DNA of 64,000 nt from Bacteroidota bacterium (lineage in GTDB: Bacteria > Bacteroidota > Ignavibacteria > Tepidaquicellales > Tepidaquicellaceae), in the NCBI GenBank assembly GCA_018266845.1, contig JAFDZO010000025.1:1-64000 (forward strand). The letters run 5' to 3'. The notes beneath the pieces are model-generated. The model ran no database searches. It was given only the letters and a program-made list of their open reading frames with translations, and was not told the DNA's origin. Shown one piece after another: positions 9,760-48,222 of this stretch. Position 1 is the first letter of the stretch, and every line of letters starts with the position of its first letter. The translations under genes and the position numbers were made by a program.

Positions 9760-10395
9760 TTAATCTATGCTATAGTTATATCTTTGAGACTGCGCTATAT
9801 ATTTTGATTTCGGAAAATCATTTTTAAGCTGGTCAAAGACTCTTTTTGCAGATGCTTTATCATTTCCCATTGCAAAATCCCTTCCGGCGTAAAATAAATA
9901 TTCATCTCGGAAAGGGTTATCTTTATCGTAGTTAGCAGCGCGCTCAAATTCTTTTGCTGCGCCTACATAATCATTTTGCGCTTCTTTTACACTTGCGATT
10001 CCTGTAATAGCTGCAACTTTTGAGAGTTTATTGCTGCCGCCAAAATCGTCATAATACTTCAGAGCATTCTGAAAATCTCTTAAACCATAATAAGCATTTG
10101 CAAGCATCAGCTTTGCCAATTGTCCGTTTTCTGAAGAGCCGTATTCGTTAACAATAAATAAAAGCCCCTTGTTTCCTAATGAATCTCCATTAATTGCTGC
10201 CTGAAAGTTTCCGGCTTCGTATGAAGGTCTAATCTTAGTTAAAGCCACAGAAGCATCTTCATTTTGCGCAGACCTCTTTGAAGTAAAAAGTATGATACCT
10301 ATAACGATAACTATTATTGCGCCGCCGATGATTAACACCTGATTTTTGTTCCTGTTAAAATAGTCACTGATGACTGCAAACGGATTATCTGACAT
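9760..10395 (-). CDS. Membrane-anchored tetratricopeptide repeat protein (YfgM-like)
   Basis: 211 residues. A short cytoplasmic N-terminus (MSDNPFAVISDYFNRNKNQ) precedes one membrane segment (VLIIGGAIIVIVIGIILF, residues 20-37). The rest contains helical TPR-type repeats at about 60-205, for example LAKLMLANAYYGLRDFQNALKYYDDF and EYLFYAGRDFAMGNDKASAKRVFDQL. Layout resembles YfgM and the TPR_21 family, which work near the Sec translocon or in envelope chaperone networks; that role is inferred only from architecture. First gene of a two-gene unit with yqeY. Its upstream region holds the repeated motif at 10584-10682. Confidence 0.8.
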   Translation of the reverse strand: MSDNPFAVISDYFNRNKNQVLIIGGAIIVIVIGIILFTSKRSAQNEDASVALTKIRPSYEAGNFQAAINGDSLGNKGLLFIVNEYGSSENGQLAKLMLANAYYGLRDFQNALKYYDDFGGSNKLSKVAAITGIASVKEAQNDYVGAAKEFERAANYDKDNPFRDEYLFYAGRDFAMGNDKASAKRVFDQLKNDFPKSKYIAQSQRYNYSID

Positions 10396-10583
10396 TTGTA
10401 ATCTCTAAATTTTAAAAATTTGATAAACAATAAATATAATGAATAAAATTAAGTTTTTAAATGAGATTTTTTGGTATTTATATGTATCCGGTAAATCATC
10501 AAAATATTTCAAAAAAGACTTATACAATGGTTAAGTCTATGTCATAAGAGAGCTTCTCCCCCTAAATCAAAACCACCTGAAAT

Positions 10584-10682
10584 AGTAACATTATTGTAAC
10601 ATTTTGAATTCTAAGTATTGATTTTTCAATATTTAAAATGTTGCATTTTTTGAATTTCCGAAACAAAATGTAACATTTTTTT
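10584..10682. promoter_or_regulatory. Two-part repeated motif in the 539-bp intergenic region 10396-10934
   Basis: The 23 bases starting at 10584 contain GTAACATTATT followed by GTAACATTTTG, a direct repeat of GTAACA with an 11-bp period (one helical turn). An AAAATGTTGCATTTTT element follows at 10635 and a related AAAATGTAACATTTTT at about 10665. The same core and an AAAATG or AATATG element at the same 50-51 bp spacing occur twice at 46581-46776. The core is 189 bp upstream of the TPR gene start. The rest of this gap holds only weak hairpins (about 10770-10790 and 10818-10833) and the terminator at 10872-10911; no gene is seen. Confidence 0.55.
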
Positions 10683-10871
10683 GCTTCTCAAAAATAGGTG
10701 TTTTTTATAAAAGCAACCGGAATGGCGCAATGCTTTCAAAGAGCAGCATTTATCCTTATTGCACCACCATAATAAAATATGGTAATACAAATTGTATTTA
10801 AAGTCATTTTTTTATACCGAAGCCACCTTCGGAGAATTCAATTTTCATATATGGATAGAAGTTCACGTGGA

Positions 10872-45678: not shown

Positions 45679-46404
45679 TTAGTTATCGTCCGGTACTCCG
45701 TTTTTATCGTCATCCCTGAATGCCTTCTTGAACGAACCTTTAATATTATCATCTATTTCATTTTCGTTTGAGCCGTTGTTAGGGTCTAATGTATTGCTGC
45801 CGCTCAAGAACCACTTAGTCTTATCGAAAAGAACTGTGATATTTGATTTAGAACCGTGATTTAATGTTGAGTTTAGATTAATTACAATGTTAACTGTTTT
45901 TTTTGATTTATATACAAAAGGAGCGCTGTTGTAATTTCCTTTTACTATGAATGAATATCTCAAGTTACCGCTTGAGCCTTCTCTAAACTCCGGGTCAGGA
46001 ATAGTTTCATTCTCTTCAGGTTTGTGAAGCTGGAATTTTATCTTCTTGTATCTTCCCGCCGGAATTATACCGGATGTCATAGCTTTTAATACACCTGCTG
46101 TATTTAATTGAACCACAATCGGTCCTACTTTAATGCTTTTTGATGAACTGTCAGATTCCACTTCTATTTCTGTAAGCAAGCCCTTTGCTTCGTTAATTTC
46201 AAGACCTGCATTATCTCCGATATTATCGGATGACATTACACTTACTGACATGTTATCATCAGAACCGGTGCCCGTTCCGGTTGTGGAAGTGGTTACGGGA
46301 TTATTACTGCATCCCGAAAGAACAAACATTGCGATGACAGTTAAGGCTAAAAGCAATGTTACCGCCTGACTAACGTTTGAGGGATTTAGTTTTACTGCTT
46401 TCAT
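45679..46404 (-). CDS. DUF4382 lipoprotein
   Basis: 241 residues from ATG 46404. This start gives a lipoprotein signal (TLLLALTVIAMFVLSGCSNN, lipidated Cys in LSGC); the longer frame from 46461 adds only a Cys-rich stretch. After a Thr/Ser linker comes a DUF4382 domain (GLLTEIEVESDSS, VQLNTAGVLKAMTSGIIPAGRYKKIKFQL). Exported lipid-anchored protein of unknown function, ending in a linker rich in Asp/Asn (DDDKNGVPDDN). The palindrome at 46430 lies 26 nt upstream. Confidence 0.78.
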   Translation of the reverse strand: MKAVKLNPSNVSQAVTLLLALTVIAMFVLSGCSNNPVTTSTTGTGTGSDDNMSVSVMSSDNIGDNAGLEINEAKGLLTEIEVESDSSSKSIKVGPIVVQLNTAGVLKAMTSGIIPAGRYKKIKFQLHKPEENETIPDPEFREGSSGNLRYSFIVKGNYNSAPFVYKSKKTVNIVINLNSTLNHGSKSNITVLFDKTKWFLSGSNTLDPNNGSNENEIDDNIKGSFKKAFRDDDKNGVPDDN

Positions 46405-46429
46405 ATTCGTGAGTTTTAATTTTAAAATT

Positions 46430-46453
46430 ATGTCGTAGCTTGAACTACAACAA
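46430..46453. promoter_or_regulatory. Palindromic element upstream of DUF4382 lipoprotein, shared with 28816-28841
   Basis: GTAGCTTGAACTAC at 46435-46448, imperfect palindrome. Read on the minus strand the surrounding sequence is TTGTTGTAGTTCAAGCTACG, which matches 28818-28837 in 18 of 20 positions. It ends 26 nt before the ATG at 46404. Confidence 0.55.
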
Positions 46454-46504
46454 AAATGCAAATAATAAAATTAAATGTCAATACCCTTTCAAAAAATTTT
46501 TCCT

Positions 46505-46776
46505 AAAATGTCGCATTTTTGTCGCATTCTTTAATTGCAGGCTACAATTGGGGTTTTTAATTGATAATACTCTCTTTAAAAGTAACATTATTGTAACATT
46601 TTGCAGCGGTACGGATGAAAAGTAGTACACAAAATGTCGGGTTTTTGCCGCATTCTTGAATTATAGTTTATAATTAAGGTTTTCAATAAATAAAAACTCT
46701 GTTAAGAAGTAACATTATTGTAACATTTTGCAGCGGTACGGATGAAAAAGTATTACACAATATGCTGCATTCTCCA
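46505..46776. repeat. Tandem ~127-bp imperfect repeat in the 609-bp intergenic region 46405-47013
   Basis: Two nearly full copies start at 46505 and 46631, and a partial third at about 46759, about 126-128 bp apart. The last 41 bases of the conserved segment (from 46581 and from 46708) are identical; the first part is only moderately similar. Each contains the GTAACA direct repeat with 11-bp period and, 50-51 bp later, an AAAATG or AATATG element. The rest of the gap holds the palindromes at 46430 and 46934 but no gene. Confidence 0.75.
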
Positions 46777-46933: not shown

Positions 46934-46955
46934 TACCTATTAGTACTAATAGGTA
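46934..46955. promoter_or_regulatory. Perfect 22-bp palindrome upstream of 47014
   Basis: TACCTATTAGT followed directly by its reverse complement ACTAATAGGTA, a perfect 11-bp dyad with no spacer. It lies 58 bp before the ATG of 47014 and is of the size of a dimeric repressor operator. No cognate regulator is recognisable in the window. Confidence 0.6.
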
Positions 46956-47013: not shown

Positions 47014-48222
47014 ATGATTATTGCCGTAAAATGCCCTTCCTGTAACGCCAATTTAGAGATTCCAGATGACGTGGAATTCATAAACTGTGAGTATTGCGGA
47101 ACCTCAATTAAAGTGAGGGAGATTGTAAGAGTTGAAACGGATTATGATGTGCCGGAATGGATTAAAATTGCTGATAACGCATATAAGGGAAAAAATTACG
47201 ACGAGGCGTACGAATATTACAACATGATTCTTGAAAAAGAGTCTTACCGGTCAAACGCATGGATTGGAAAAGGGCTTGCTGCGGGTCGCTTATCCGATAA
47301 CTATGAGCCGAGATTTGAAGAAATGAATCAGCTTGTTAAATACGGCATCAGTATTTCAGATGAAAAAAAGAAAAATGGAGAGCTGTCGAATGCAAAAAGA
47401 GAAATTCTTTCAATGCTTCAGGATTATTATAAAAATATTAAAACGGATGTTTTCAACTCAGCAAATGAATTTGATGAATACATAAATAGCTGTAAACCTT
47501 TTATTGAGGCATGCGGAAATTCTTATCAGAATTTTTTCACCAACGATTTAATCTTTATCAAGTTTTACAGTACAGCTTTGAGAAGCCTTGTGCAAAAAAA
47601 TTTTATAAACTCTGCCGAAACACGCAAGACAATTGAAATAAAAGACCCCCTGCGAAGAGAGTATAGAAACAAGCTAAGGGAGTTAGAAAAAGAAATTAAA
47701 ATTAATGACAGCAAGTATGTTACTTTTGATGAGTTTGAACGGAAAACAAAAATAGCAAAACTGCTTATTAGCGGCGCCGGAGTTGTGGTGTTAATTTTTC
47801 TAATCATTACGGGAGTAAACTACTTCACCAAAATTGCATCTCAAAATAAATCTAAAGCTACACAGGAAGATTCTGTTACAAATAGCAAGCAAACGGAAGC
47901 AGGTTATGAAATAATAAACAAATCGCTAAAGAATAAGAAAATTATCTATACTATTTATACAGAAACCGATAATCTATCCGATATTCAAAAATATGCGGAT
48001 GCTTTGATAGAAAGAGATAAGAAGCAATTTGAATTGATAACGCTCTACTTCTTATCCGATAAAAATGAAGCTAATGATTTAGGCGGGAGAGATATTCAGC
48101 TGAAAAATAGCAATAAAAACATGCCGAATTCTTTTTCAGCGCGGGTAAAATATACTAAAGGGAAAACCGCAAAAGAACTAAGCTATTACGAAAAGAATAA
48201 GCTGATATCGGAAAGTTATTAA
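47014..48222 (+). CDS. Zinc-ribbon, TPR-like membrane protein
   Basis: 402 residues. N-terminal zinc ribbon with Cys7, Cys10, Cys25, Cys28 (CPSC...CEYC). TPR-like region at about 50-180 (AYKGKNYDEAYEYYNMILEKESYRSNAW). Coiled coil at about 215-245, one membrane segment at about 248-270 (LISGAGVVVLIFLIITGV), then about 130 residues beyond the membrane that form an alpha/beta domain. Family not recognised; a membrane sensor or assembly factor is possible. The 22-bp palindrome lies upstream. Confidence 0.7.
   Translation: MIIAVKCPSCNANLEIPDDVEFINCEYCGTSIKVREIVRVETDYDVPEWIKIADNAYKGKNYDEAYEYYNMILEKESYRSNAWIGKGLAAGRLSDNYEPRFEEMNQLVKYGISISDEKKKNGELSNAKREILSMLQDYYKNIKTDVFNSANEFDEYINSCKPFIEACGNSYQNFFTNDLIFIKFYSTALRSLVQKNFINSAETRKTIEIKDPLRREYRNKLRELEKEIKINDSKYVTFDEFERKTKIAKLLISGAGVVVLIFLIITGVNYFTKIASQNKSKATQEDSVTNSKQTEAGYEIINKSLKNKKIIYTIYTETDNLSDIQKYADALIERDKKQFELITLYFLSDKNEANDLGGRDIQLKNSNKNMPNSFSARVKYTKGKTAKELSYYEKNKLISESY

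Follow-up and report, generated by a model that had tools for sequence, protein, structure and literature searches.

What does a short direct repeat that recurs at 10.6 kb and 46.6 kb of one Ignavibacteria contig stand for: a set of co-regulated genes, or DNA that only looks regulatory? The window analysed here is a 64-kb stretch (64,000 nucleotides) of contig JAFDZO010000025.1 from the family Tepidaquicellaceae, for which a first-pass annotation described a 23-base core of two GTAACA units, a second element at fixed spacing, and a possible regulon shared by the genes nearby. The core is present as described, with GTAACATTATTGTAACATTTTG found at 10585, 46582, and 46709, all on the plus strand, and with no matches in shuffles of the window. 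Its halves are indeed spaced by 11 bp, and all three copies lie 5' of a minus-strand gene. Two of the three sites are not independent, since 46582 and 46709 belong to one 127-bp tandem duplication, while a variant core at 46510 and further genomic sites had escaped description. As a whole, the original observation is partly confirmed and its interpretation partly supported. On balance, with somewhat better than even confidence, we read the core as part of a lineage-specific and partly mobile family of intergenic repeats that carries constrained, putative protein-binding sites.

Table 1. Features of the two core-bearing loci in the 64-kb window
Feature	Position	Strand	Remark
Membrane-anchored TPR protein, left neighbour of 10.6-kb site	9763..10395	-	Pfam TPR_21
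Class A module 1: core, AT-rich palindrome, inverted repeat	10582..10695	+	profile E=5.6e-15, 56.7 bits; this copy is itself among the sequences that built the profile
Core motif copy (AWWGTHRCATT x2 + YY), in class A element	10582..10605	+	
AT-rich palindrome AAGTATTGATTTTTCAATATTT	10613..10634	+	
Inverted repeat, left arm AAATGTTGC	10636..10644	+	overlaps AAAATG element
Inverted repeat, right arm GTAACATTT	10670..10678	+	
Class A module 2: CCATAATAAAATATGG palindrome (10767-10782) + AAAGTCATTTTTTTATACC	10752..10833	+	profile E=9.9e-15
Lipoprotein-like protein, left neighbour of 46.6-kb island	45682..46461	-	no Pfam family; 71% identical orthologue beside congener island
Variant core copy GTCGCATTTTTGTCGCATT	46510..46528	+	inner-base type found in congener
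Core motif copy, first of 127-bp tandem duplication	46579..46602	+	
Degenerate core-like copy GTCGGGTTTTTGCCGCATT	46636..46654	+	directly after AAAATG at 46631; sequence inspection
Core motif copy, second of 127-bp tandem duplication	46706..46729	+	23/24 core identity between both copies
Perfect palindrome CCTATTAGTACTAATAGG, second genus-specific motif	46936..46953	.	right island edge
Right neighbour of 46.6-kb island	47014..48222	+	56% identical orthologue beside congener island

The refined motif is AWWGTHRCATT-WTWGTHRCATT-YY, i.e. AWWGTHRCATTWTWGTHRCATTYY, an 11-mer in tandem with an 11-bp period. Searching the whole genome for GTAACATT-WTW-GTAACATT returned 36 perfect copies and two with one mismatch, beyond which matches fell to chance level, with no graded series of weaker sites; the reversed motif gave none in the same genome at the strict setting and four when two mismatches were allowed. 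Leaving the inner bases free (GTNNCATTWTNGTNNCATT) gave 38 sites in this genome and some 95-96 in the sole congener compared, against none in both controls, so that the two genomes together hold about 130 near-identical sites. Across 38 own and 95 congener sites, variation is limited to the two inner bases of each half: the pair is AA in nearly all own halves, and CA, AA, CG, TA, TG or AG in the congener. Position -3 is A in 97-98% of sites. At position -1 of the first half, 97% of own sites carry A, and the congener has A or T; the own arrangement reads AGTAACA-TTAT-TGTAACA.

The second part of the proposed motif fared differently. An AAAATG or AATATG element does follow at +50/51 at each of the three window cores, as the annotation stated, but it is not shared elsewhere: it occurs at 3 of the 38 own sites, exactly those three, and at none of 96 congener sites, so that we rejected it as a second conserved part and treat the core, not the two-part motif, as the general unit. 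At 10.6 kb the element belongs to the left arm of an inverted repeat (AAATGTTGC...GTAACATTT), and at 46.6 kb its first instance sits just 5' of a decayed core copy.

The genome-wide scan that the annotation had suggested yielded neither a scatter through coding sequence nor a lack of further hits, and every site it added was intergenic. The own sites are grouped in 19 islands, all 19 outside genes by longest-ORF calls, in a genome whose window is 89% coding; sequence was read in stretches around the islands and their orthologous places. Among the genomes searched, the core family is confined to two sister species, which make up the whole sample of the genus. None of 97 relatives from its family, order, and class has the strict form, and the form with freed inner bases gave 0-2 matches in each of 42 further relatives, which is chance level. 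Broad scans of genome and viral contigs added scattered records with a single match per stretch, among the matches listed; Firmicutes, in which WalR is at home, were prominent among the listed single matches of the collection scan, Lachnospiraceae included, and the records would fit either WalR-like boxes or chance. We found no papers on such repeats in Ignavibacteria.

The resemblance to OmpR/PhoB-type boxes noted at the outset is upheld. The core consists of two direct hexamers or heptamers 11 bp apart centre-to-centre, close to the VicR consensus TGTWAHA-N4-TGTWAHA (PMC4168254), and repeats with this spacing, in multiple copies per site, are typical of ArcA and PhoB (PMC3798270). With the WalR/VicR box (TGTWAH-N5-TGTWAH) it shares both the 11-bp direct repeat and the GTAACA halves. 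It differs in that exact TGTWAHA does not occur in both halves, the first base of the first half being A or W, the inner bases of the congener H-R, and the W position being occupied by C in 54-62% of congener sites. Furthermore, the A at -3 and the YY are fixed here, and the copies are far stricter, lie in arrays, and lack regulon logic. ArcA adds repeats at 11 or 22 bp, whereas pairs here are mostly 39-372 bp apart and show no spectrum of degenerate sites.

Were these boxes the marks of a true regulon, the core pairs would be bound by a response regulator of the OmpR/PhoB family, similar to WalR/VicR or PhoB, that controls the genes beside them. Beyond the sequence likeness, this would fit the frequent position of sites 60-200 bp upstream of a gene. 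Over the two species together, divergent regions also exceed convergent ones by 18 to 4 (p=0.004; assuming divergent regions of double length, p=0.10), a hint of an association with promoters and a point against the repeat reading. The flanking genes in both species, however, have no common function (they include trigger factor, arginase, MazG, BshC, dpp permeases, IspF, a LexA-like protein, and secreted proteins), and island orientation is independent of theirs: congener islands between same-strand genes split 17 ++ to 13 --, so orientation ignores transcription. At 15 of 19 own islands the left neighbour is a minus-strand gene, and at four own islands it is the 3' end of a gene, not the 5' end, that lies to the left. 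Near-total identity among sites, with no weaker ones, is also unusual for a regulon, and the coherent genes and consistent site position expected of the targets of one transcription factor were not found. Type IX secretion cargo was considered as a target set and rejected: Por_Secre_tail occurs at 5 of 38 own and 12 of 78 congener neighbours, and with at least 150 matches in each genome enrichment cannot be claimed. Given in addition that islands are gained and lost between the sister species (below), the shared regulon first proposed is unsupported, and we regard it as unlikely.

What carries the core is clearest at 10.6 kb. This site and 11 others, all in the own genome, form what we call class A, a unit of two modules and about 250-300 bp. 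Module 1 comprises the core, an AT palindrome, the inverted repeat AAATGTTAC..GTAACATTT, and CTGCAAAATAA; module 2, 170-300 bp beyond, comprises CCATAATAAAATATGG and TATAAAGTCATTTATTTATGCC. Profiles of the two modules recover the identical 12 places in the own genome; in the congener, the module-2 profile matches nothing strongly. Within module 1 the spacers have diverged at near-constant length, while the boxes between them are strongly conserved. All six places with clearly located orthologues are without a class A element in the congener, one of them being an interruption of the dpp permease operon, where the intergenic region measures 818 bp here and 12 bp there. The other own and congener lengths are 955 vs 127, 1136 vs 144, 542 vs 294, 517 vs 163, and 576 vs about 190 bp; part of the extra own DNA consists of other repeats, so these differences are not due to class A alone. 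At the counterpart of the 10.6-kb site the core is also absent from the congener, but an extra gene is present there.

Dispersal as a unit with empty orthologous sites is one mark of MITEs and other non-autonomous transposons that class A shows, and it resembles MITEs and ERIC/BIME-type repeats as a 250-300 bp non-coding element at unrelated places. It differs from them in its conserved boxes between diverged spacers. Clean terminal inverted repeats or target duplications could not be delimited in this two-species comparison, because alignment between the intergenic regions of the two genomes is too poor to set boundaries; this, and the lack of any transposase associated with the islands, counts against the repeat reading. 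Gain and loss of islands, the fixed two-module build of class A, and orientation independent of neighbours together make the carrier look like repeat DNA that is partly mobile. Class A may thus spread as a non-autonomous mobile unit; its mobility is something we infer, since neither a transposase nor ends nor a target duplication was found.

A more specific version of mobility would have a transposase or recombinase bind the core as the end of a particular non-autonomous transposon, the arrays offering it several sites in the way of Tn7- or Mu-like ends or of REP/RAYT systems. The 12 class A copies with their empty orthologous sites, the palindrome at the far edge, and Y1 transposase genes elsewhere in the genome would suit this. 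At the same time, there is no autonomous copy, linked transposase or defined end, and some islands that lack module 2 have core arrays too. REP elements (PMC3733652) are likewise intergenic, high in copy number, lineage-specific, and found in genomes with Y1 transposase genes, yet they favour convergent and unidirectional regions, opposite to the divergent excess here. The core, moreover, is a direct repeat rather than a hairpin, lacks the 20-40 bp palindrome with a GTAG or CGTC tag, and is unlinked to RAYT genes: the four Y1_Tnp matches in the genome, read as 3-kb loci, contain no core pair or module-2 signature, and an element tied to RAYT was rejected. A transposon end thus seems distinctly unlikely. 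One of these Y1_Tnp loci (L239) carries a different repeat.

Islands of the second type, class B, which include that at 46.6 kb, are arrays of one to five core pairs, often with further repeats of 11-bp period (GACGGATTTTTGACGGATT, GTCGGGAAATAGTCGGG) and with the palindrome CCTATTASTASNNATAGG at their edge. At 46.6 kb both neighbours are orthologous, and place and orientation are the same in the congener. This island is one of six in the own genome whose orthologous place in the congener is likewise occupied by an island, where 0.8 would be expected (p=7e-5, the number of intergenic regions being extrapolated from the window); two more match decayed or AAT-spaced congener copies. That some islands are kept at orthologous places speaks for a regulon, and that several retain both place and orientation, as regulatory DNA would, speaks against the repeat reading. 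Content nevertheless turns over, since three of the six coinciding islands are class A here and arrays only in the congener. In the other direction, several congener islands are missing here, with intergenic lengths of 831 vs 219, 537 vs 150, 445 vs 78, and 598 vs 56 bp (congener vs own), and one own counterpart keeps the skeleton only, without core arrays. In one orthologous intergenic region (L222 vs L251), the arrays are oppositely oriented relative to the flanking genes.

The islands multiply by tandem duplication. When tandem units are compared with each other, their cores agree at 93% of positions and their 40-bp flanks at 61%; in this comparison the window's 46-kb entry sets the 46510 variant against the 46582 core, not the 127-bp pair. 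In orthologous islands, too, sites persist though the sequence between them does not align by eye. A core that is constrained while its flanks change suggests that it is itself being recognised, and a protein would be the simplest candidate for this. We therefore picture the core, carried on genus-restricted, modular intergenic islands, as the putative recognition sequence of a sequence-specific DNA-binding protein. The binder would most likely sit on tandem 11-bp half-sites as OmpR/PhoB-type winged-helix dimers do; such a dimer would be the most economical candidate, and an OmpR/PhoB-family (WalR/VicR-like) protein is plausible. The islands would then not be a classical regulon, but copies may secondarily influence promoters near their landing places. 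Extending this, one protein whose inner-base specificity has shifted between the sister species might recognise mobile arrays as portable platforms that rewire promoters as they spread. The shift would rest on the inner bases, almost only AA here and CA, AA, CG or TA in the congener, and we consider this extension quite improbable.

Sites dispersed over the chromosome might alternatively serve its architecture or maintenance, as targets of a nucleoid protein or as a segregation or recombination signal. Dispersed, strictly intergenic, high-copy sites with function-neutral neighbours could be expected of such a role, as could the strand bias on the 1.75-Mb contig C2 of the congener (G001; loci L252-L268), where 17 islands are on the plus and two on the minus strand. 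Strands are mixed on the other contigs, however, and no significant link to GC skew was seen; the motif as a marker of replication strand was rejected, with motif-strand skew positive in 9 of 17 own and 17 of 43 congener cases. KOPS, Chi, and parS are unlike sites that are limited to two species, turn over fast, and cluster strongly, and we give this explanation very little credence. A structured RNA was likewise rejected, as stem covariation equalled that of shuffles and seven loci gave no Rfam match.

Under the preferred reading, a repeat family with constrained sites, the two sister genomes offer about 130 natural sites with two variable positions per half, partly at orthologous places. This set could be used to find the binder, to watch binding specificity change, and to ask whether spreading repeats turn regulatory. 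It also cautions against taking even a perfect OmpR/PhoB-like box as the sure sign of a regulon.

Several other repeats accompany the islands. The intergenic palindrome CCTATTASTASNNATAGG occurs at about 14 places in the own genome and 22 in the congener, and at none in 57 other relatives; it is often at the right edge of islands and is also present without them. Most lone CCTATTA palindromes (L313-L319, L321) have a hairpin, AAAACTTACGAGGGGGCGTAAGTTTT, near them on either side, which is another repeat family. A larger repeat, AACCGCAAAG...CTTTGCGGTTAAAT, adjoins several islands (L214-L216, L219, L225, L229); some of its copies are bounded by inverted TCACACGACAAAAATTTTT, and the repeat has a MITE-like look. 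Finally, in L250-L284 the direct repeats GTHRCATTATT, GACGGATTTTT, and GTCGGGAAATA, all with an 11-bp period, occur together in islands, as if the three were one binding architecture in several sequence versions.
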